Shown here: one piece after another, positions 1 through 13,123 of the stretch | Position numbering within the stretch: the first letter of the stretch is position 1 | Layout: each line of letters begins with the position of its first letter | IMG/VR virus record: IMGVR_UViG_3300029985_000180 | Span: 1-20,598 of that record | DNA length: 20,598 nucleotides | Strand: one strand, 5' to 3' | Source of the DNA: a virus | The notes under the pieces: model-generated | Database searches by the model: none | What the model was told of the DNA's origin: nothing | Seen by the model: the letters and a program-made list of their open reading frames with translations, nothing else | Made by a program: the position numbers and the translations under genes

Positions 1-153
1 GTGGTAAAAGAAAATACTACATGTCTTAAAGATGTAATATATCCTGATAATAAAAATATTATATTTGTTGAAAATTATTTAGAGGCAGCTGGTGTTGTTC
101 AATGTCTTAATGCTGGTGTAGATTATAAAATAGTAAAGGATGGAAAGGAATAA
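1..153 (+). CDS. 3' end (or all) of an unknown small gene
   Basis: An open frame runs from the first base of the window to a TAA at 151-153 and encodes 50 residues ending in DYKIVKDGKE. It opens on GTG, but the frame touches the window edge, so the true start is probably upstream and the entry is partial. I do not recognise the protein. The stop overlaps the start of the next gene (TAATG), the usual sign of translational coupling, so this is part of the same operon as the RusA-like resolvase. The sequence is mixed charged and hydrophobic, without a membrane segment or cysteine motif. Confidence 0.6.
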   Translation: MVKENTTCLKDVIYPDNKNIIFVENYLEAAGVVQCLNAGVDYKIVKDGKE

Positions 154-650
154 TGGTGGATAGTTTAACAATAAAACATTACGAGATGCCTGTTTCGGTT
201 AACGCGCAGACAATGGTTCGGTGGGGTAAGAAATGTAATACTCATGCCACACACTCCTTCTATAAACATGCTGGAGAAGAAGTAATACAAATTTTAAATC
301 AAAGTAATCCCCACCAGTTATTAAGTTTCTTGGCCTCTCTTAATTCTTCTCCAATTTCTATAAGTATGACAATGTATAAATCCTGGCGAACAAAGAAGGG
401 TAATATCAGGGTAAATGACGTTGAGAACTATATGAAGAGTGAGACTGATTTGATATTTAAGTGTATAAATAAGTGGTTAGAAGATAATATTTCAACCTAT
501 TCTAATTCTAATTCTTCCCTTCCTTTATTTACTTTAGATGATAGTCAGGTATTCGAGGTACATATCTTAAAAGTAGAGTCAAAAATAGAGCAAATTGAGA
601 TTGAGATTAAGAAATTTAAGGAAGTGATAATATGCCAGGAAATGTTATAA
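153..650 (+). CDS. RusA-like Holliday junction resolvase
   Basis: 165 residues. RusA-family enzymes are small homodimeric endonucleases that resolve four-way DNA junctions in phage replication and recombination. The N-terminus has the family's SVN motif (residues 15-17). The acidic core is D89-V-E91-N92 followed by K95, matching the D-x-D-N ... K spacing of RusA (D70, D72, K76 in the E. coli enzyme). LDDSQVFEVHILKV (128-141) matches the family segment carrying the third aspartate. Two oddities: the second aspartate is a glutamate, and about 20 extra residues, including a Ser/Asn run near 115-123, separate the first acidic pair from D129/D130. The start at 153 overlaps the upstream stop and follows an AAGGA-like ribosome site. 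The 3' end overlaps the sigma-like gene by 19 bases. The assignment rests on remembered motif spacing, not a search. Confidence 0.68.
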   Translation: MVDSLTIKHYEMPVSVNAQTMVRWGKKCNTHATHSFYKHAGEEVIQILNQSNPHQLLSFLASLNSSPISISMTMYKSWRTKKGNIRVNDVENYMKSETDLIFKCINKWLEDNISTYSNSNSSLPLFTLDDSQVFEVHILKVESKIEQIEIEIKKFKEVIICQEML

Positions 651-1039
651 AGAAAAATAAAGATAGAAATAAAAATAAAGATAGCACACCAATAGAGAAC
701 GAGAATGAAATATGTGCTCTCTACCTGCCCTTAATAGATACTCATATTCTTCATCTAAAATTAAAATATTCCAGTAATAAAAACTTAGATTGGGATGATG
801 TTTACTCTTTTTTACAGCTAGGATTACTTAAAGCTGTTCGTTCATATCAAAAGGGGCATAATACAACAATGAAGTCTTGGATATTAACATTTTTGAGAGG
901 CTATACAAAAAACTACTTTCGAGACTTTGGACAATATTACTCAATTAATGACCAAATTGATGACACTAATCCAAGACAAGCAACAAAACTATATTATGAG
1001 ATAAATAAGATAAAAGAGGGAGAAGACTATGGCATGTAG
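632..1039 (+). CDS. small sigma-70 region-2-like protein, candidate late-gene sigma factor
   Basis: 135 residues. The segment from about 52 to 105 resembles sigma-70 region 2: DWDDVYSFLQLGLLKAVRSY (53-72) parallels the core-binding 'DDLxQxGxxGLLKAVxxFD' helices, and TTMKSWILTFLRGYTKNYFRD (78-98) parallels the aromatic region 2.3/2.4 'FSTYAxWWIRxxIxxxxRD' that melts and reads the -10 element. Nothing after residue 110 looks like region 4, so no -35-reading domain is present. The N-terminus is a Lys/Asn-rich tail. Known precedent: T4 gp55 and small phage sigma factors that work with a reduced set of regions. Start chosen at ATG 632, seven bases after AAGGAAG; the gene overlaps both neighbours. 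Its place beside a resolvase fits a late-transcription activator. It could instead be an unrelated helical DNA-binding protein. Confidence 0.6.
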   Translation: MPGNVIKKNKDRNKNKDSTPIENENEICALYLPLIDTHILHLKLKYSSNKNLDWDDVYSFLQLGLLKAVRSYQKGHNTTMKSWILTFLRGYTKNYFRDFGQYYSINDQIDDTNPRQATKLYYEINKIKEGEDYGM

Positions 1040-1304
1040 AGACAGAAACTGTAAGACTTGCGAATATATTGAAATTGACAGAATAGAAAAAGCAAATGAT
1101 GAGATGATTATAGAATGCCCTAAATGTCACTCTATCAGCTTTCAGATGCTGTTTACTAGCCCAGCCGTTATTGTAATGAAAGGTGAAGGAACATCAGCAC
1201 TGGAATTTTGTGATGAATTAGACCGGAGAAGAGCTAATGCGGCTTCTGGGCATGGGAATACTAGTCTTAGTGATTCTTCTGTTGGCGTCAAATATAGTAG
1301 ATAA
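1029..1304 (+). CDS. FmdB-type zinc-ribbon protein
   Basis: 91 residues with two CxxC knuckles, C8-K-T-C11 and C30-P-K-C33, plus an extra C3. After the second knuckle comes the FmdB-like continuation, hydrophobic then SPAVIVMKGEG (44-54), matching the family pattern 'SAPxxxFKGxG'. FmdB-type ribbons bind one zinc and are common as small phage and bacterial proteins thought to be regulatory; the exact role is unknown. The C-terminal 35 residues are polar and unlike the family. The gene overlaps the sigma-like gene by 11 bases and has a GAGGGAG ribosome site, so the two are translated together. A joint role in phage transcription control is plausible but not shown. Confidence 0.65.
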   Translation: MACRDRNCKTCEYIEIDRIEKANDEMIIECPKCHSISFQMLFTSPAVIVMKGEGTSALEFCDELDRRRANAASGHGNTSLSDSSVGVKYSR

Positions 1305-2778: not shown

Positions 2779-2889
2779 ATGAGCAACCTAGATAAGATAC
2801 TAGACGGAATGATACTTGGTTTCGTTGTAGTTTTCTGGATTTACTTCACACTAATCAAAAAATATCCAGATGACAAAGAAAGAAGGTAG
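2779..2889 (+). CDS. 36-residue single-span membrane protein
   Basis: The frame starts one base after the upstream stop, with AAAGGTGGAA as ribosome site. Residues 10-26 (GMILGFVVVFWIYFTLI) form one membrane span; the N-terminus is neutral and the C-terminus is highly charged (KKYPDDKERR), which predicts a cytoplasmic C-terminus. Function unknown. It is followed five bases later by another membrane protein. Confidence 0.5.
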   Translation: MSNLDKILDGMILGFVVVFWIYFTLIKKYPDDKERR

Positions 2890-2894
2890 ATATA

Positions 2895-3107
2895 ATGCAG
2901 AAAAATGGAATGCCCCTCTGGTTATTAGGCACTCTACTAACAATAGGAGTAATATTAGTAGTAGCAATAATAATAGTAATAACACTAATCCTTATACATG
3001 TATTGGGTATAGTACGCTTTGCTTTAATAGTAATAGCTCTTCAACTTGATTCCATTCAAACAACTCTCAATAATATATTAAAGAAGTTGTCCGGAGATAA
3101 GAAATGA
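2895..3107 (+). CDS. small hydrophobic membrane protein, holin-like in shape only
   Basis: 70 residues. Residues 7-50 are almost wholly hydrophobic and long enough for two membrane spans (about 8-28 and 30-49) around a His-containing turn, followed by a polar basic tail (NNILKKLSGDKK). Size, two spans and a charged tail fit small phage holins, but no endolysin or spanin is visible nearby, so I do not call it a holin. An AGAAGG site precedes the ATG. The stop overlaps the next start (ATGA). Confidence 0.55.
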   Translation: MQKNGMPLWLLGTLLTIGVILVVAIIIVITLILIHVLGIVRFALIVIALQLDSIQTTLNNILKKLSGDKK

Positions 3108-3442
3108 ATAGGCTGTCTTTTATCCTCTCAAAAACAGTTCAAATCAAGGAAGAAACTACCATAACTCATACAGTAAGAACAAAAGAAGAAATAAAAATCA
3201 TAAAAATTTCGCCCTATAATAACCCTCAAATAAAGAAGGGAACACATATACATCATGAGGGTAATATATATGAAGCTATAAAAATGGATCCTTTAGGTTG
3301 GTACTTATTATTAATCTCAGGTAAAAAGAAAAGCTATCAGAATACACCAGAATACCCAATGCTATACAGATGGGATGATAGGGTATATTTAGGTAAGCGT
3401 TTTGAACCCCTGAGAAGCCAAGCAAGTAAGAATGGCAGATAA
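3104..3442 (+). CDS. unknown soluble protein, last gene of the operon
   Basis: 112 residues, unrecognised. The first 45 residues are basic and beta-prone; the second half has a compact pattern of aromatic and glycine residues (GTHIHHEGNIYEAI, GWYLLLIS, YRWDDRVYLGKRF) suggesting a small beta-barrel. It overlaps the membrane protein by four bases (ATGA) and has GGAGAT upstream, indicating coupled translation. A terminator follows 13 bases after its stop. Confidence 0.55.
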   Translation: MNRLSFILSKTVQIKEETTITHTVRTKEEIKIIKISPYNNPQIKKGTHIHHEGNIYEAIKMDPLGWYLLLISGKKKSYQNTPEYPMLYRWDDRVYLGKRFEPLRSQASKNGR

Positions 3443-4001: not shown

Positions 4002-4592
4002 TTACTTGTTCAAAAAAGCAGAGAGATTTTCCTGATTACCATTCCAGTTGCTCATGACTTTCACCAGCTCGCTTTCCATCCAGGCCTTGACTTCTTCAAG
4101 ACCACCCGAAGAAGAGACTAGCAAAGAAGCCTTGCCAGCCCTTCCCATTGCCTTGATAAACTCCCTGACAGTGGCTTTGGTGGTGTCGTTTAGGGAGTTG
4201 TTGATGATGGTCGGGATAATGTGTGGTTCCATGTAGCTAAACAGGGAAACCAGACCATCTTCATCTTCCTTGCTTCCTTCCGACTTGGCCAGATTAATCA
4301 GCCTGGAAGCTTCGTCACCAGAGAGACCCAGATAACCCTTCACACAGTTGGCCAAAACATCCTGTCCCATCGTGTGATAGTCCAGGCTGGCAATTTCCAA
4401 GCTGTCATAGAAGGCCTTGAAAGCCCTTTTGCTGACCCTGAGAAAGTAATCAGGTTGCTTGATGCCTTTGTTCTTTCCCTTGATAGGAGTGACACCCACG
4501 ATGTTGATGGAAGGGAAGTCAAAGTATTCAGACTTCCTTTCACCGGAGTTATCAGTCTTGGGTTCGATAAGGGAGGACCATTTAATCGACAT
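4002..4592 (-). CDS. unknown protein, isolated minus-strand gene with distinct codon use
   Basis: 196 residues from the ATG at 4592, unrecognised. A GTG in frame at 4601 is possible, but ATG 4592 has TAGGTG six bases upstream, so I prefer it. The protein looks soluble: a mixed N-terminal domain (YFDFPSINIVGV, DYFLRVSKRAFKAFYDSL) and a helical C-terminal half (TVREFIKAMGRAGKASLL, WMESELVKVMSNW). It is the only gene on this strand. Its codons prefer C in third position (TTC, AAC, GAC, ATC) and it is visibly richer in GC than its neighbours, which suggests either recent transfer or strong expression. It has its own terminator, and an inverted repeat overlaps its likely promoter. It could be an early or lysogenic-phase accessory gene (moron); that is inference. 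Confidence 0.7.
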   Translation of the reverse strand: MSIKWSSLIEPKTDNSGERKSEYFDFPSINIVGVTPIKGKNKGIKQPDYFLRVSKRAFKAFYDSLEIASLDYHTMGQDVLANCVKGYLGLSGDEASRLINLAKSEGSKEDEDGLVSLFSYMEPHIIPTIINNSLNDTTKATVREFIKAMGRAGKASLLVSSSGGLEEVKAWMESELVKVMSNWNGNQENLSAFLNK

Positions 4593-4628
4593 GATATACA
4601 CCTATACTTTTTACTGCGTTAAAGCTAT

Positions 4629-4657: not shown

Positions 4658-4956
4658 CTGTCTTACTTATATCATTATGAATTGTCAAGGATTGTCAGCG
4701 GGCCTCAACCTGCTTGACATAATAGAAGCACAGAGTATGCCAAAGTTAGATTCCTTATTTTTCAATGCTTTCTTGAGATAGGCTAAAAACGAAAGTGGCA
4801 ATAAAACTACATATAATTGACGAAAATTAAACGCATATATCTTTATTTTCCTAGCTCTCTGTATATGTTGTATTGTATTTAGACCTGTGTATTTATTACC
4901 ACATATTTGAGGTAAAATTGACACACCCCTACTATACATTACTTATATCTCACTTG
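4658..4956. other. gene-free divergent region
   Basis: No convincing gene. The reverse-strand open frame in 4685-4939 lacks a ribosome site and reads as random AT-rich sequence. ATTGTCA occurs twice ten bases apart (4681 and 4691). A TTGACA at 4918-4923 has only a poor -10 (TTATAT, 19 bases on). The region separates the leftward gene from the rightward packaging genes and probably carries promoters for both. Confidence 0.5.
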
Positions 4957-4964
4957 GTTATAAT
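4957..4964 (+). promoter_or_regulatory. GTTATAAT element before terS
   Basis: Contains a perfect -10 word TATAAT (4959-4964), 22 bases before the terS start. The -35 position (around 4936-4941, ACATTA) has no resemblance to TTGACA. It is one of four intergenic copies of this 8-mer in front of packaging and structural genes. Confidence 0.45.
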
Positions 4965-4986
4965 GTATTTGAAGGATATTATAAAC

Positions 4987-5322
4987 ATGAGTGAAAACAA
5001 TAAAATGCGCCCTGGAAAGAATCATCCTGGTCCCGGTCGCCCTAAAGGAACACCTAATAGAATATCTGGTAACCTGCGAGAGGCTATTCAAGATAGCTTC
5101 AATAAGCTTGGAGGAGAGAAGTGGCTGTTAGAGTTAGCCAAGAAAGACCCAAGAACATTTGCCGGTCTGTTAGCTAAAATTCTGCCAGATGCTAATAAGA
5201 GTGAGCTACCTCCAATTCCTACTATATCAATCTCATTTGTTGAATCACATACTACCAAGCTTGACGATGATACATTAACTACTCTCAAGGATGCTAATGA
5301 TAAGGATGATACTAGTCTTTAA
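4987..5322 (+). CDS. terS: putative small terminase subunit
   Basis: 111 residues. The small terminase recognises the phage DNA and hands it to the large subunit. Residues 7-24 (MRPGKNHPGPGRPKGTPNR) carry the Gly/Pro/Arg/Lys motif 'GRPKGTxN' typical of short phage packaging proteins, an AT-hook-like DNA-contact element; then comes a helical segment with LREAIQDSFNKLGGEKWLLELAKKDP split around residues 30-55 and LLAKILP (61-67), also typical. The acidic, low-complexity C-terminus (DDDTLTTLKDANDKDD) could bind the large subunit. An ATG at 4963 is in frame, but the ATG at 4987 follows AAGGAT and gives the family's usual start. Position just before terL supports the call; the family is loosely defined. 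Confidence 0.65.
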   Translation: MSENNKMRPGKNHPGPGRPKGTPNRISGNLREAIQDSFNKLGGEKWLLELAKKDPRTFAGLLAKILPDANKSELPPIPTISISFVESHTTKLDDDTLTTLKDANDKDDTSL

Positions 5323-5757: not shown

Positions 5758-7311
5758 ATGGCAAACAATAAACTTACAACCAATTCGACAAAAATAACAA
5801 GTTCCTCTAAATCCCCCTCTAAATCCCCCTCTAAATCCCCCTCTAAATCCTCTTCTATATCCCTCTCTAAATCCCCCTCTAAATCCCCCTCTAAATCCCC
5901 CTCTAAATCCTCTTCTATATCCCCCTCTTCCTTGTCTTCTTTGTCTTCTGCTTTATTACCTCCACCCCCTCCTTCTCTACCTGCTCCTACTCTTAATCTA
6001 GTCTTGCCAAAAAAAGTTATACCTCTCTTAAATACTGATGCTCGTTATAGGGTTCTTTGGGGCGGTAGGTGGTCAGCTAAAACAGAGAGTATAGCTAGAA
6101 TTCTTGTTGTTAAATCTTGTCAGAAAAAGTTACGTATCTTATGTGCTCGTGAAACTCAAGTAGCAATTAAACAAAGTGTTCATAGTAAGATTAAAGAAAT
6201 AATAGAGTTGATGGGGCTTTCTCCTTATTTTGAGATAACTGATACCTCCATTAAAAATAAGTGGGGTTCTGAATTTATTTTTTCTGGCTTAAGTGATGAT
6301 GTTATTATGGGTATCAAAAGTATGAACTCTCCTGATATTCTGTGGTTTGAAGAAGCTAGCAGTATGTCTTGGAGAACTTGGGATAAGCTGGACCCTACTA
6401 TACGTGCCAAAAATGCTGAACTCTATTTTACCCTGAATAGAGATTTAGATGAAGATCCAATATCTCAACTCTTTATATGTCAAGAACCTCCAGAGAATAG
6501 TATAGTTATTGAAATGGAGTATTGGGATAATCCTTGGTTTAGTGATGAAGCAATGAAGCAAATGCAATGGATGGCTTCTACTGACTTTGAAAAATATTTA
6601 CATGAGTGGGAAGGTAGGCCAGTTAATCATAGTGAAGCATCTGTATTTAAGAATAAGTTTATAGTTAAAGATTTTACTCCTTTTATTGACCCTGAAACTT
6701 GGTCTCCTCTTTATGGTTGTGATTTAGGATATAGTATAGACCCTACAGTATTAATTAAAGCCTGGGTATATGAGGATAGATTGTATATAGAACATGAGTT
6801 ATATCAGGACCATTTAGATTTAGATTTGATGCCTGATGCTTTTAATACTATTCCTGGTTCTTCCTCTCATATTATATATGTTGACTCCTCAAGACCAGAG
6901 ACTATTTCCTATCTTCGTTTACATGGCTTTCCTAGGGCCTTACCATCTCCTAAGGGGCCTGGAAGTATAGAGGATGGTATATCAAGGCTTCGAGGATTTA
7001 ATAAGATTGTGGTTCATCCTAGGTGTCAAAGAACTTTACATGACTTAAAGAATTACTCCTATAAGGTTGATAAGAAAACTGGTAATGTGCTGCCTGTAAT
7101 AGTAGACAAGCATAGTGACTGTATTGATGCTCTACGATATGCCATTACTCCTATTATCAGAAATTATAAGATGTCAGGTAGAAGTGGACCAGATATAGGA
7201 AGTATACTATGTGACCAATATGGAAGACCTATTTCTTCAAAGAGAAATGTTCCCGAAGCTTATAGATTACAACAAGGATATAGTGCTTTACGTGGGAATA
7301 AAAACTTATAG
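5758..7311 (+). CDS. terL: terminase large subunit (ATPase/nuclease)
   Basis: 517 residues; PBSX/Sf6-type large terminase, the motor that pumps DNA into the head and cuts it. ATPase domain: Walker [11 protein letters not shown] (102-111), Walker B ILWFEEA (194-200), coupling motif FTLN (224-227). Nuclease domain: [10 protein letters not shown] (D322), IYVDSS (D376), and [11 protein letters not shown] (D454, D457), the expected three acidic sites of the RNase H fold. Homologues begin only a short way before Walker A; here about 75 extra residues come first, a nested SKSP repeat (18-57), a Ser/Leu run and five prolines. No ATG lies between 5758 and Walker A, and AAAAAGG precedes 5758, so the extension is probably translated. 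Codon use matches the other late genes. The portal gene follows after a hexanucleotide array. Confidence 0.95.
5809..5928 (+). repeat. nested 12-bp/60-bp coding repeat in terL
   Basis: Two 60-bp units (5809-5868, 5869-5928) differ at one base. Each unit is three copies of AAATCCCCCTCT followed by AAATCCTCTTCT and an ATATCC variant. It encodes (KSPS)n-type residues 18-57 of the terminase. The coding strand is pyrimidine-rich. Confidence 0.9.
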
Positions 7312-7320
7312 GGATATATA

Positions 7321-7330
7321 GTTATAATAT
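7321..7330 (+). promoter_or_regulatory. GTTATAATAT element before the portal gene
   Basis: The 10-mer GTTATAATAT begins ten bases after the terL stop and contains TATAAT (7323-7328). No -35 box is visible 16-18 bases upstream (AAAAAC region). Transcripts starting here would carry the GAAATA array in their 5' leader. The same 10-mer occurs at 9633 and 12806. Confidence 0.45.
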
Positions 7331-7340
7331 TAAGGAATAA

Positions 7341-7424
7341 GAAATAGAAATAGAAATAGAAATAGAAATAGAAATAGAAATAGAAATAGAAATAGAAATA
7401 GAAATAGAAATAGAAATAGAAATA
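7341..7424 (+). repeat. 14 perfect copies of GAAATA
   Basis: An 84-base tandem array of the hexamer GAAATA lies between the terL stop and the portal ribosome site (AAGGAAG near 7432). It is non-coding: two of its forward frames lack stops but none has a linked start. The RNA would be unstructured and purine-rich. Confidence 0.95.
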
Positions 7425-7447
7425 AAGGAAAAAGGAAGATAGACACT

Positions 7448-9628
7448 ATGATAAATGACAATGGTGAAGAATTAGAAGGTCTGCCACTCCTAGATGGTAT
7501 TAAAGAAAGATTTAGAAAGACAGTAGAAGCATGGGATAAGAATTATAAACAAGCCATATCTGATGTCTCCTTTCTAAATTCTGATAACCAATGGCCAGAT
7601 GGTGAAAGGGCTGAAAGAGTTGGTAAGCCCACTATTGCTTCTGACCGTATTAATGCCCAGGTTAAGAGTATAGTTAATGCCCAGAGAGATAATAGGCCTG
7701 CTGTTTTAGTTTCTGCTGTTAATGATGAGGCTGATGAAGAAGTTGCCAATGTCTTACAGGGTATTATCAGACACATCGAATATCAGAGCAAGGCAAATCT
7801 AGCTTATGATACTGCTAACGAATTTGCTGTTCAGGGTGGCTTAGGTTTTATCAGGCTCAATCTGGAATATGAGAAGGATTCGTTTTCTCAAAAAATAGTA
7901 ATATCTGCTGTTCCTAATCCTTTTCTAGTTTATATTGACCCCTCCTTTAAAACAATAGATGGTTCTGATATAGAGTATGCCTTTATAGTAGAACCGATGA
8001 CCTATGATGACTTTAAATTATCCTTTCCAAAATCTCAATTAAGCAATATACAACATAATGAGTGGTATCCTGTTGCTTCTCGATTTCCAGAATGGTTTGA
8101 TAATGATAAGAAGACTACTATAATCTGTGAATACTTCGTAAAGGAATATGAGAAATATACCCTAGTCAGATTAAAGAATGGAATTGTAAAAGATAAGGCA
8201 GATTGTTCAGAAGGGGAGATTAAAAGAATTGTTCAGAGTAGGGCAGCAACTAGACAAACTGTAAAATGGTACAAACTGGCTTGTGGTATTGATTCCCCAG
8301 CTGAGATATTAGAAGAGACTGAATGGGTTGGTTCATCTATTCCAATTATTCCTGTATTTGGTGATGTGTTACTTGATAATGGTTCCCGTGTTTTCTCTGG
8401 GTTGGTCCATAATACCAAGGAAAGTCAAGTAATGTTAAACACTATTCAGACTGTTATTTTAGAACAGATTGCTCGTTCTCCTAAAAATCCTTGGATTGTT
8501 CCTGCTGGTGCCATAGAGGAATTTAAAGAATACTGGGCTAATGTTAACCTACTTGACTTGCCTTACTTGCCCTATAATACAAAGATAGAAGGCATGGGTC
8601 CTGGTGAGTTTCTTCCTGCTCCCTCAAGAATGACCGCTGAACCTCCTATTCAGGGTATGTTACAGGCTTTACAGGTCCTAGAGAATGATATCAAGGCCAG
8701 TAATGCTATATATGACCCAACATTAGGTGAGAAGATGGCTAATGACCAGAGTGGAGTTGCTATTAAAGCTCTACAACAGGCCGGCAATATAGCTCATTAT
8801 AACTACTCCGACAACTTATCACGGGCCATAGCAATTATAGGAACTCAGCTGCTAGATTTGATTAGAAAAGTATATACAGAAGAGAGAGTAATAAGAATAA
8901 TAGGATTGGATGATAAGCATCAGTTGGTTAAGATTAATGGCCAAGGTGATACAGATGATGAAATGACACAAGAAGGAGTTCAGAAGGTATTTGATATTAC
9001 TACAGGGGAATATGATGTAGCTGTTTCTTCTGGCCCATCATTTGCTACTAGACGTGCTGAAAATATGTCATTCCTTGTTGAGCTAGTTCAGTATTCTCCT
9101 AATAGTATGCAATTTGTCCTGGATAAGATTGTGGGCTTAATGGACTTCCCAGAAAGTAAAGATATTAAAGAAAGATTAGAGAAACTATTACCACCTGCCC
9201 TACAAAGCCAAGACCAACAGAAAAATAATCCTCAAATGCTACAACAAGAATTGACAAAGGCTCATGGTCTTATTCAGCAACTTACTCAAACCCTACAAAA
9301 CGAAACTCAATTAGCTGATAAGGAGGCAATGAAGTTTAAGATTGCCACTCTAGAAAATCAGACAGAGTTAGTAAAACAGCAGAGAGATATGCAGCATGAG
9401 GGTTCTTTAACTGCTTTTAAGGCTGAAATTGCTGAAATAAAAGCCGCTTCAGATCATAGTAAGGCCCTTTTACAGCAGGTTCATCAGCACATATTAGATA
9501 CTGGTGCTAGAGAACATCAAACTGCCATGGATATAACACAGACTATGGCTCAAAATGCTATGACACCACAAGAGCAACAGGGACAGCAAACTCAACAAGG
9601 ACAGGCACAAAACCAACAAGGACAATAA
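7448..9628 (+). CDS. P22-type portal protein
   Basis: 726 residues, almost the same length as P22 gp1. The portal is the 12-subunit ring at one head vertex through which DNA enters and leaves. Family features: DNQWPDGERAERVGKPTIASDRIN split across residues 36-60, VNAQRDNRP (77-85), and the middle segment IPIIPVFGDVL followed by GLVHNTKESQVMLN (about 297-332), matching the P22-portal pattern 'P.IPvfG ... GlVR..kd.Qr..N'. Residues about 585-726 are Gln-rich and helical (PQMLQQELTKAHGLIQQLTQ), ending in a QQGQ-rich tail; this fits the long helical barrel of P22-type portals. It starts at an ATG after AAGGAAG. The neighbours terL and scaffold support the call. Confidence 0.92.
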   Translation: MINDNGEELEGLPLLDGIKERFRKTVEAWDKNYKQAISDVSFLNSDNQWPDGERAERVGKPTIASDRINAQVKSIVNAQRDNRPAVLVSAVNDEADEEVANVLQGIIRHIEYQSKANLAYDTANEFAVQGGLGFIRLNLEYEKDSFSQKIVISAVPNPFLVYIDPSFKTIDGSDIEYAFIVEPMTYDDFKLSFPKSQLSNIQHNEWYPVASRFPEWFDNDKKTTIICEYFVKEYEKYTLVRLKNGIVKDKADCSEGEIKRIVQSRAATRQTVKWYKLACGIDSPAEILEETEWVGSSIPIIPVFGDVLLDNGSRVFSGLVHNTKESQVMLNTIQTVILEQIARSPKNPWIVPAGAIEEFKEYWANVNLLDLPYLPYNTKIEGMGPGEFLPAPSRMTAEPPIQGMLQALQVLENDIKASNAIYDPTLGEKMANDQSGVAIKALQQAGNIAHYNYSDNLSRAIAIIGTQLLDLIRKVYTEERVIRIIGLDDKHQLVKINGQGDTDDEMTQEGVQKVFDITTGEYDVAVSSGPSFATRRAENMSFLVELVQYSPNSMQFVLDKIVGLMDFPESKDIKERLEKLLPPALQSQDQQKNNPQMLQQELTKAHGLIQQLTQTLQNETQLADKEAMKFKIATLENQTELVKQQRDMQHEGSLTAFKAEIAEIKAASDHSKALLQQVHQHILDTGAREHQTAMDITQTMAQNAMTPQEQQGQQTQQGQAQNQQGQ

Positions 9629-9632
9629 ATCT

Positions 9633-9642
9633 GTTATAATAT
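9633..9642 (+). promoter_or_regulatory. GTTATAATAT element before the scaffold gene
   Basis: GTTATAATAT starts five bases after the portal stop. It carries TATAAT (9635-9640) preceded by TGT, a perfect extended -10 (TGnTATAAT). No -35 box. It lies about 80 bases before the scaffold start and would transcribe scaffold, coat and the post-coat gene up to the terminator at 12768. Confidence 0.55.
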
Positions 9643-9721
9643 ATTAAAAGAGCCTTTGAGTCTCATTAATCCTCATACTTATAGGACTTGATACCTTATT
9701 TATCATGTGGAGAGAAAAGAT

Positions 9722-10642
9722 ATGACCCCTGAGAAAGATGCAATGTTAGATATTGAAGATTTTAATAAGGTTCTACTAACTGGAAAACAAGAGGAGAATG
9801 TAGTAAAGCCTCCAGTTAAAGAAAAAGAAGTAGAACAAGAACAAGAACAAGAAGCTCAAGAAACAGAAGCATCAGAAGAAGAAATAGAAACAACTGAAGA
9901 AGTAGAAAATGAAATAGAAACCGAAGAAGAGGCAGAAAATAAGGCCCTTTCAGAAGAGGAAACTGATAAAGAAGTAGAAGTAAAAGAAACACCTTCTAAA
10001 GTTACTCATCGTGATACAAAAGCCGAAAAACAGATAGCAAAGTTAGTAAGAGAACGAGAAAGACTAAAAGGACAACTGGAAGCCACTCGTAATCAAGCAA
10101 GACAACCAGTAACTCAAGAAACATTTATTGACCTTGATGCTCCAAATCCTTTAAATTATGCTAATGGCGAAAATGATATTGATTTTAGAGTTGATGCCAA
10201 GTTATATCAGAGGGATAAGCAAAAAAAGATAAATAATTTTCAGGAAATTCAAAAAGAAATAATAAAAAAATATGAAGATACCACTGAATTATTAGAAATG
10301 GATGCGGAAAGAGTTGCTTCTGGTATTAAAACAGCTTCTCCAATGATGGCAAAATTAGTATATGATTCACCTATTCCTGGCGAACTTTGGCATTACCTCT
10401 TAGCTAATTCTGATGAAGCAATTAAGATAACACAAATGGACCCTATAAAAACTGCTGTTACTATTGGTAGAATTGAGGCTAAATTGGAAAACGAAATCAA
10501 AGAGAATAAAGAAAGTAAGGAAATAAGTAAAGAAGTAAATACAAAAATTAAGAAAGTATTGCCAACTCCGCCAAATCCGGTAAAATCTAATAAAGCTAAT
10601 ACTACTGTTCAGGTTAAAAATTATGGCTTTACTGCCTATTAA
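9722..10642 (+). CDS. head scaffolding protein
   Basis: 306 residues, close to P22 gp8 (303). Scaffolds drive coat assembly and then leave the procapsid. Sequence: a very acidic N-terminal third (runs of Glu, for example EEEIETTEEVENEIETEEE around 50-70), a helical charged centre (KLVRERERLKGQLEATR near 105), a segment 'SPIPGELWHYLLANSDEAIKI' starting near 218 split by the usual proline and ending in IGRIEAKLE, which I recall as typical of P22-like scaffolds, and a basic C-terminus (KIKKVLPTPPNPVKSNK) where P22 gp8 binds coat. An upstream GTG at 9707 is in frame, but ATG 9722 has GGAGAG seven bases before it. Position between portal and coat decides the call. Confidence 0.85.
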   Translation: MTPEKDAMLDIEDFNKVLLTGKQEENVVKPPVKEKEVEQEQEQEAQETEASEEEIETTEEVENEIETEEEAENKALSEEETDKEVEVKETPSKVTHRDTKAEKQIAKLVRERERLKGQLEATRNQARQPVTQETFIDLDAPNPLNYANGENDIDFRVDAKLYQRDKQKKINNFQEIQKEIIKKYEDTTELLEMDAERVASGIKTASPMMAKLVYDSPIPGELWHYLLANSDEAIKITQMDPIKTAVTIGRIEAKLENEIKENKESKEISKEVNTKIKKVLPTPPNPVKSNKANTTVQVKNYGFTAY

Positions 10643-10685: not shown

Positions 10686-11966
10686 GTGGCACTTACAAGC
10701 GTTTACAACAATCAGGCCTTCATAACCGCTAAGGCCCTGAAGCAAGTTAAAAATAATCTAGTAATGGTCTCTCGTGTAGCTCGTAGATGGGATGGAGACT
10801 TTGCAGGTTCTTTTGCTGCTAGTAATGGTGGCCCTGATGGTGGTAAGATTGGTACAACTTTAAATATTAGAACTCCGTGGTTCCCAAGTCTTCGTACAGG
10901 TTCTACTGCTGCTCCTAGTGCATATGCTGACTATTTTACTCCCGTAAGTCTCCTACAGTTAGGTGTTGATTACGAAGTTACTGTAGCTGATCAGACCTTA
11001 AATGTTGATGAATTTTATAGTAACATTGTAGATCCAATGGCAAAGACTCTCTATCAGAATATGGATTATGTTTGCTGGCAGGCTATTAATCCAGGTGTTC
11101 AAGGTGGTGGTTTTAATCAGTTCATAGGAAAACCAGGAACTCCACTAACTAACTCACAGAATATAATGGATGCATATGCTGTTATGCAGACTCAGGCTTC
11201 CGTATTTACTGATGATAAGATTTCAGTGGCTCTTAATCCACATACTAATGCTAATGTGTGGCAGGGTATTTCTACTGTGTTTAACCCTCAGTCAGATGGA
11301 TCAACTCGGTGGCGTAATGGTAGTATTGGTCATGTAGCCGGTATTGATTATTGTCAGACTGCTAATGCTCAGGCTCTAACTCTTGGGACATGGTCAGGAA
11401 CTATTCTGTATTCCTCAGGTGCTTCTGATGGCGGAAATACTATCACAGTTTCTGGCATGACTGGTGCTTTTGCTCCTGGTGAACACTTTACTCTCAATGG
11501 TGTATCAGCTGTTACTCCCATGGGTAAGGCAACTCAGTCAGAACTTAAACATTTTGTAGTTGAATCACAGACTGGCTCAGTTGTTACCTTCTCTCCAGCC
11601 TTCCATTTAACTGGTCCTCTTCAGAATATTAATGCTCTTCCTATTACTGGTGCTAATTTAAATCCTTGGGGTTTTACAACTGCCTCAGAATTAACTGCCG
11701 GAACTGGTCAGATTGCTCGTGAAAGTCTAGTATTCCACGAAGATGCCATTGCTTTCTGTATGGCTGACCTAATTGATACCTCAAATCTTGGTGGTGTTGC
11801 TGGTGGTAATAAGTTTGCCGCTCGTATGAAAGATCCTCAGACTGGTCTTCGTTGTTCTACACTATTCTGGATTGATGGTTATAATCATAAAATCTTATTT
11901 AGACTTGACGCACTTTATAATGCTGCTCCTCTACGACAGGGTTTTGCTACAATTGTTGTAGAATAA
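10686..11966 (+). CDS. major capsid (coat) protein, P22 type
   Basis: 426 residues; P22 coat is 430. HK97-fold coat proteins build the icosahedral head. The N-terminal arm and core (ISVALNPHTNANVWQG, 179-194) are followed by a beta-rich stretch at about 233-325 (NTITVSGMTGAFAPGEHFTL) that occupies the place of the P22 insertion (I) domain. The C-terminal part (NLGGVAGGNKFAARMKDPQTG, then LRCSTLFWIDGYNHKILFRL split across 385-405) matches the end of P22-type coats, where a small enzyme-like pattern 'G...rcdilwG.... p..a' recurs. The start is GTG at 10686 with AAAGGA upstream; no ATG is available in frame nearby. Expected to be the most expressed late gene. Confidence 0.92.
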   Translation: MALTSVYNNQAFITAKALKQVKNNLVMVSRVARRWDGDFAGSFAASNGGPDGGKIGTTLNIRTPWFPSLRTGSTAAPSAYADYFTPVSLLQLGVDYEVTVADQTLNVDEFYSNIVDPMAKTLYQNMDYVCWQAINPGVQGGGFNQFIGKPGTPLTNSQNIMDAYAVMQTQASVFTDDKISVALNPHTNANVWQGISTVFNPQSDGSTRWRNGSIGHVAGIDYCQTANAQALTLGTWSGTILYSSGASDGGNTITVSGMTGAFAPGEHFTLNGVSAVTPMGKATQSELKHFVVESQTGSVVTFSPAFHLTGPLQNINALPITGANLNPWGFTTASELTAGTGQIARESLVFHEDAIAFCMADLIDTSNLGGVAGGNKFAARMKDPQTGLRCSTLFWIDGYNHKILFRLDALYNAAPLRQGFATIVVE

Positions 11967-12767: not shown

Positions 12768-12804
12768 AAAATGGCTCATTAGAAATAGTGGGCTATTTTG
12801 TTTT
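12768..12804 (+). terminator. terminator of the scaffold-coat operon
   Basis: AAAATGGCTCATT (12768-12780) pairs with the complement ending at 12799 (TAGTGGGCTATTTT) over about 13 bp including three G-T pairs, around an AGAAA loop. GTTTT follows. A GTTATAAT element begins two bases later, so this is a stop/restart boundary between the head and tail operons. Confidence 0.7.
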
Positions 12805-12805
12805 A

Positions 12806-12815
12806 GTTATAATAT
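12806..12815 (+). promoter_or_regulatory. GTTATAATAT element before the connector/tail genes
   Basis: GTTATAATAT (TATAAT at 12808-12813) sits directly after the terminator and about 20 bases before the next start. No -35 box. The same 10-mer occurs at 7321 and 9633. It is well placed to start the tail operon. Confidence 0.55.
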
Positions 12816-12835
12816 AATATATGTGAGGTATACTC

Positions 12836-13123
12836 TTGGAATTTCCTATTTTTTTATATAAACGACATAGCACAGAAGCCTTTCAATGCCCTTCTCAGGA
12901 GTTTCTAGATGGCATTAAAGATAAGGAAATGTGGCAAGAAACACCTTGGCACGAACCTATAATAAAAACTGTTGCTGAATTAGAAAGAGAATATCCTAAA
13001 TTACTGGCTAAAATAGATAAATTAGAGTTAATAGTAGCTAATTTTGAAGAAGAAAGTAAGATTAAAGATGTCCAGATAGCTGATTTAAAAGTAAAGTTAA
13101 GATTTGCCAAAAAAGGTCTATAA
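12836..13123 (+). CDS. small coiled-coil protein, TTG start
   Basis: 95 residues, unrecognised. The first 45 residues are mixed and aromatic (EFPIFLYKRHSTEAF, QETPWHEP); residues 48-90 form a likely coiled coil (VAELEREYPKLLAKIDKLEL, then KIKDVQIADLKVKLRFAKK). The start is TTG at 12836, chosen because GAGG lies seven bases upstream and no ATG or GTG is in frame nearby. Three bases separate it from the tail adaptor gene. Position suggests a virion or assembly factor. Confidence 0.65.
   Translation: MEFPIFLYKRHSTEAFQCPSQEFLDGIKDKEMWQETPWHEPIIKTVAELEREYPKLLAKIDKLELIVANFEEESKIKDVQIADLKVKLRFAKKGL

Follow-up and report, generated by a model that had tools for sequence, protein, structure and literature searches.

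Can a sigma factor that ends soon after region 2 act as the late-gene switch of a P22-like phage, and if so, which sequences would it read? This question is raised by a gene for a 135-residue protein near the left end of a 20,598-nucleotide stretch of viral DNA (IMG/VR record IMGVR_UViG_3300029985_000180; hereafter the window). A preliminary description of the sequence had read the product as resembling sigma-70 region 2 with no region 4, had placed its gene between a resolvase gene and the late genes of a P22-type phage, and had suggested, with T4 gp55 as the model, that it activates late transcription from promoters consisting of a -10 element alone.

The sigma-like gene and its surroundings

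Features of the window are listed in Table 1. The sigma-like gene overlaps the resolvase gene on its 5′ side by 19 bases and the zinc-ribbon gene on its 3′ side by 11 bases, and the genes for terminase, portal, scaffold and coat proteins all lie 3′ of it on the plus strand. The arrangement initially described, with a RusA-type resolvase upstream and late P22-like head genes downstream, was borne out by profile matches to the portal and coat proteins; on the basis of these predicted proteins the window virus is a P22-like phage. At its left end the window is cut off. The same phage, at ~99.98% identity, is found in three further viral contigs, all starting to the right of position 4011; one of them, G002, carries the phage ~9 kb past the right end of the window.

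Table 1. Genes and sequence elements of the window, with the positions of corresponding elements in related contigs
Feature	Position	Strand	Remarks
RusA-like Holliday junction resolvase gene	153..650	+	Pfam RusA, E 7.6e-5
Region-2-only sigma-70-like gene (FliA/SigF type)	632..1039	+	135 aa
Zinc-ribbon (FmdB-like) gene	1029..1304	+	NCBIfam
Late promoter-like element GTTATAATGTA	4957..4967	+	Before terS-position gene (4987-5322); G012 ortholog 21763
Terminase large subunit	5758..7311	+	
Late promoter-like element GTTATAATATT	7321..7331	+	Before portal; L006 2254, G012 24058
P22-like portal protein	7448..9628	+	E 1e-140, over its own cut-off
Late promoter-like element GTTATAATATA	9633..9643	+	Before scaffold; L006 4493, G012 26269
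Scaffold protein	9707..10642	+	
P22-like coat protein	10686..11966	+	E 9e-5, slightly under its own cut-off
Terminator-like hairpin	12770..12802	+	Read from sequence; directly upstream of 12806 element
Late promoter-like element GTTATAATATA	12806..12816	+	Before small gene (12836-13123); L006 7669, G012 29485

An alignment-based search identified a relative, L081/G012 (39.5 kb; hereafter G012), with a terminase large subunit that is 79% identical. The gene order RusA-sigma-zinc ribbon is the same in the two phages, with 42% identity between the RusA-like proteins and 50% between the zinc ribbons, and the G012 sigma ortholog is intact, with 132 residues and 49% identity to the window protein. 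Between the two orthologs dN/dS is about 0.18 (54% identity over 117 aligned residues, with dS near saturation), indicating that the gene is under purifying selection.

Several other features of these genomes were recorded. Positions 1-153 of the window encode the apparent C-terminal end of a DUF3326 protein, upstream of the resolvase gene, and a DUF3326 protein, unexpected in a phage, is also encoded upstream of the resolvase gene in the relative (L081:902-1945; Pfam E 5e-43). A single minus-strand gene for which no family match was found lies just 5′ of terS, amid the rightward array, in both phages (window 4002-4601; L081:7965-8684). Between the sigma and late genes of the relative, L081:4351-5061 encodes a protein whose N-terminus has a methylation motif like that of type IV prepilins (Pfam N_methyl, E 2e-7). 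The N-terminus of the window terminase large subunit (5758-5990) contains long SPSK-type repeats, and a reading of the ORF list of G012, itself P22-like, revealed no obvious replication genes.

The 135-residue protein matched the Pfam Sigma70_r2 profile with E 6e-5 and 23.2 bits (24.0 bits in a genome scan), which places it, taken alone, at the 24-bit Pfam cut-off; the G012 ortholog passes this cut-off on its own (25.1 bits) and matches a PHROG sigma family with E 4e-7. Every one of the 16 NCBIfam matches at E<=1 was to a sigma-factor model, the best being SigB/F/G (E 6e-6) and FliA (E 9e-5), and a phmmer search of the PDB returned three matches, only sigma factors, with FliA 1rp3 at the top (E 0.008). 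When the window protein and its ortholog were combined in a two-row profile, this profile matched, in the PDB, FliA 1rp3 (E 5e-5) and FliA 6pmi (0.0017), and hhalign comparison with five SigF/FliA-type region 2s gave a probability of 97% (E 6e-11). The similarity spans regions 2.1 to 2.4. By hand alignment, an aromatic residue conserved in both orthologs, W83, occupies the position equivalent to sigma70 Y430, the residue that flips -11A. These Pfam, NCBIfam and PDB matches agree with the original reading of the open reading frame, and as judged by them the product of the gene is a FliA/SigF-type region-2 protein of the sigma-70 superfamily.

No relatives of the 135-residue protein emerged from single-sequence searches of viral contigs, GTDB genomes and phage records, and a search with the zinc-ribbon protein likewise came up empty. 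Weak tblastn matches of the sigma-like protein were rejected as relatives, since they were either SigF-type sigmas of full length or tail genes without relation to it. Three records filed as phage look cellular: in MT839780.1 and MT837241.1 complete SigF-type sigma genes are surrounded by genes of bacterial appearance, and in MW495066.1 the sigma gene has rpsA and ispH as neighbours.

AlphaFold models of the protein, built from a single sequence and from five sequences, predicted a helical core with pLDDT of about 70-88. The top Foldseek matches of the model in the PDB were nearly all sigma factors, with TM up to 0.82 (target-normalised) against sigma domain 2 and a fit of about 2 Å over 75 residues. 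As none of the Foldseek E-values fell under 0.05, it is the agreement among the matches, and not any one E-value, that supports the fold assignment. The models point to a domain-2 fold, and comparison of both fold and profile with sigma region 2, a check put forward in the preliminary description, returned sigma factors almost exclusively, with FliA/SigF the best.

Profile searches for region 4 (PF04545/PF08281), which were positive in 14 of 14 control genomes, found none in the protein, as had been noted from the sequence alone, and none elsewhere in the window or in the overlapping contig; in lacking it the protein falls outside the full-length SigF/FliA group. Its last 20 residues ('NPRQATKLYYEINKI') resemble the first helix of region 3 of a SigF ('APRQMYELYYRINQI'), so that it looks like a SigF-type sigma that ends inside region 3.

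A single-element motif before late genes

On reading the late intergenic gaps, an 11-base motif, GTTATAAT[A/G]TA (GTTATAATRTA), was spotted. It gives a candidate sequence to the -10-only late promoters of the preliminary description, which had named none. The portal element differs from the motif by one mismatch, two further elements are present in an overlapping contig, one ahead of an ejection-type gene and the other ahead of a small gene of membrane type, and no element was found to the left of position 4900 in the window.

Exact copies occur three times in the window, versus 0.07 expected, each on the late strand and in the gap just before a gene. The post-hoc choice of motif was allowed for by counting all k-mers across the gaps and in 500 shuffles: the 10-mer GTTATAATAT is common to 5 of 14 gaps, a number reached in 0 of 500 shuffles. 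G012, which was found later, provided an independent test and contained seven exact copies, all on one strand, with zero copies of a reversed control pattern. Six of its elements precede the same six genes as in the window phage; the seventh is not strictly late and lies upstream of the sigma operon, 2.2 kb upstream of the sigma gene and on the same strand.

When the 13 sites of the window phage and G012 were compared, 9 of 11 positions were invariant and the other two differed once each. L006, an 80%-identical relative, covers three of the gaps and retains the element in each. At the 9633 site the sequence just upstream diverges from L006 and is conserved from the element onward, and at the 12806 site there is a 22-base indel between the terminator-like hairpin and the element. 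Matching hairpins are found in L006 and in G012, in the latter also directly 5′ of the element. The leader between the element and the portal gene (window 7330-7430) contains about a dozen GAAATA repeats that are absent in L006.

Nothing resembling a -35 element was detected. Across the 13 sites the best match to TTGACA at a distance of 16-18 bases was 2.3 of 6, versus 2.5 for background, and no conserved upstream position beyond the element stood out; generic sigma-70 -35/-10 scans gave no more matches than shuffles. The late genes are preceded by a conserved single promoter-like element without a -35. Its conservation and its placement ahead of genes on the rightward strand, which are mostly late, are observed; its function as a promoter, its recognition by this sigma and its late timing are what we infer.

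Both known sigma-bearing phages have the element, as do partial contigs that belong to their group. Neither sigma nor motif was found in the eight P22-like viral relatives searched. P22-like relatives at a greater distance, among them records of 37-46 kb, gave no match to the sigma protein, nor to the Sigma70_r2 profile when scanned with it, and 12 relatives had no shared 10-mer above shuffles, as compared with 5-6 gaps in the two sigma phages. This association has a sample of n=2 sigma-bearing phages, and the records compared may be incomplete. Because the exact-k-mer test recovers neither the known phiEco32 promoters nor any motif in S-CRES1, its negative result in the relatives is weak evidence on its own. 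Recognition of GTTATAATRTA by the sigma is suggested by their co-occurrence.

Proposed mechanism and alternatives

The combination of a region-2-only sigma with a near-invariant -10 word that has nothing upstream argues that the two probably work together as a late-gene switch. We consider it quite probable that a minimal domain-2 sigma directs the host core to single-element late promoters of the sequence GTTATAATRTA. The protein, reduced to domain 2 plus a region 3 stub and made from an early/middle operon, would bind the host RNA polymerase core via the beta′ coiled-coil and direct it to the elements before terS, portal, scaffold, and genes on the ejection and lysis sides. Lacking region 4, it would need no -35 element. 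The usual P22 arrangement is one late promoter plus antitermination. The present data suggest a P22-type phage in which several separate, dispersed promoters would serve the late genes instead, and in G012 the element upstream of the sigma gene could provide positive feedback.

One alternative would modify this explanation and not exclude it. The zinc-ribbon protein might bind the beta flap or DNA and so replace region 4, giving a split sigma with a gp33-like partner. The overlapping or abutting genes, their identical order in both phages and the conservation of the zinc ribbon are consistent with such a partnership, but no Pfam or NCBIfam match ties the zinc-ribbon protein to region 4, a -35 that it could read is missing from the promoters, and FmdB-like zinc ribbons are widespread; we regard the partnership as doubtful. 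Equally tentative is the fuller proposal that late antitermination in a P22-like lineage was replaced by a sigma of ~130 residues that reads dispersed 11-base promoters, with the zinc-ribbon protein as a novel type of split-sigma partner.

In the main rival explanation, the host housekeeping sigma reads the GTTATAATATA sites, perhaps with another phage activator, and the sigma-like protein does something else. TATAAT is the canonical housekeeping -10, and it is preceded at the sites by a G at -14, which belongs to the extended -10; since a promoter with an extended -10 can do without a -35, these sites might be read by the host holoenzyme. However, T-15 of TGn is present in only 5 of the 13 sites, and identity reaches -4, past the housekeeping -10. 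P22-like relatives that lack the sigma gene also lack the element, and a leftward promoter candidate in G012, identified by eye, has TATAAT without the GT prefix. With these observations, reading by the host sigma seems improbable.

Less probable still, and in our estimate very improbable, is that the protein is a decoy, a domain-2 fragment that would occupy the beta′ coiled-coil, displace the host sigma and shut off host transcription without initiating. Domain 2 is generally known to have the main core-binding surface, and many phages encode proteins that block the host sigma, but a decoy would leave the conserved single-element motif without a reader, and the conservation of W83 in both orthologs also speaks against it. 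That the gene is what remains of a full-length SigF-type sigma in the course of decay, as its region 3-like C-terminus might suggest, is already unlikely from conservation and can be given almost no weight, since the G012 ortholog, at 49% identity, is of almost equal length and sits in the corresponding place, and the dN/dS value speaks against decay.

Comparison with known sigma factors

The best sequence and fold matches to the 135-residue protein are full-length FliA/SigF sigmas, which differ from it in having regions 3 and 4 and in using a -35 element. In functional kind it would stand with gp55 and gp36, sigmas without region 4, a region that is absent from both the window protein and its G012 ortholog.

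T4 gp55 is a region-2 sigma for an 8-bp TATA-type late promoter without a -35; together with gp33 it has been described as a split sigma, and a review calls it the smallest of the family (PMC2988020). It differs from the window protein in its length of 185 residues, its C-terminal clamp-binding tail and its work with gp33 and the gp45 clamp. Profile comparison of the two proteins found no similarity (hhalign probability 0.4%), and the T4 late word TATAAATA was not enriched in the window phage. The analogy to gp55 made in the preliminary description holds for the missing region 4 and the single-element late promoters, but does not extend to any detected sequence kinship. The protein would therefore be gp55-like in its way of working and not, on this profile comparison, a recognisable member of the gp55 family.

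A looser precedent may be seen in the group-3 sigmas of cyanophages, which are encoded beside terL (PMC2784084). P-SS2 ORF003, S-CBS2 gp77, S-CRES1 gp20 and their counterparts in contigs L021-L024 share a SigF-type region 2 and a gene that adjoins the terminase; in these sigmas Pfam finds only region 2 and no region 4, and the profile of the 135-residue protein matched them with a probability of 92% (E 5e-7). They differ in length (171-244 residues), in having a region-3-like extension and in coming from otherwise unrelated phages. Among cyanophage-like contigs and isolates (L021-L024, about 2785-3384; L025-L027), the gene immediately following terL encodes a SigF-type sigma in which no region 4 is detectable; in the contigs it is located between terL and a portal-like DUF4055 gene. 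These sigmas possibly represent a wider class of region-4-less phage sigmas.

In phiEco32, the phage sigma gp36 has no homology to region 4, and its promoters, which precede middle and late genes, have one element (tAATGTAtA) and no -35, an absence that was attributed to the missing region 4 of gp36 (PMC8948821). As in the window protein, Pfam finds only region 2 in gp36, where the match is weak. Both elements contain TAATRTA, although that of phiEco32 is without the GTTA start. The 214 residues of gp36 compare with 135 here, its phage belongs to another group, and it was not among the tblastn matches of the 135-residue protein. Of the two, gp36 is a better-matching experimental precedent than gp55.

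Sigmas of this kind are known experimentally from T4 gp55 and phiEco32 gp36, and the phages described here would provide an independent lineage of minimal, region-4-less sigmas for which candidate promoters have been located. With 132-135 residues, the protein may be a functional sigma of even smaller size than gp55, and the system would make the question of how little sigma suffices to start transcription directly testable.
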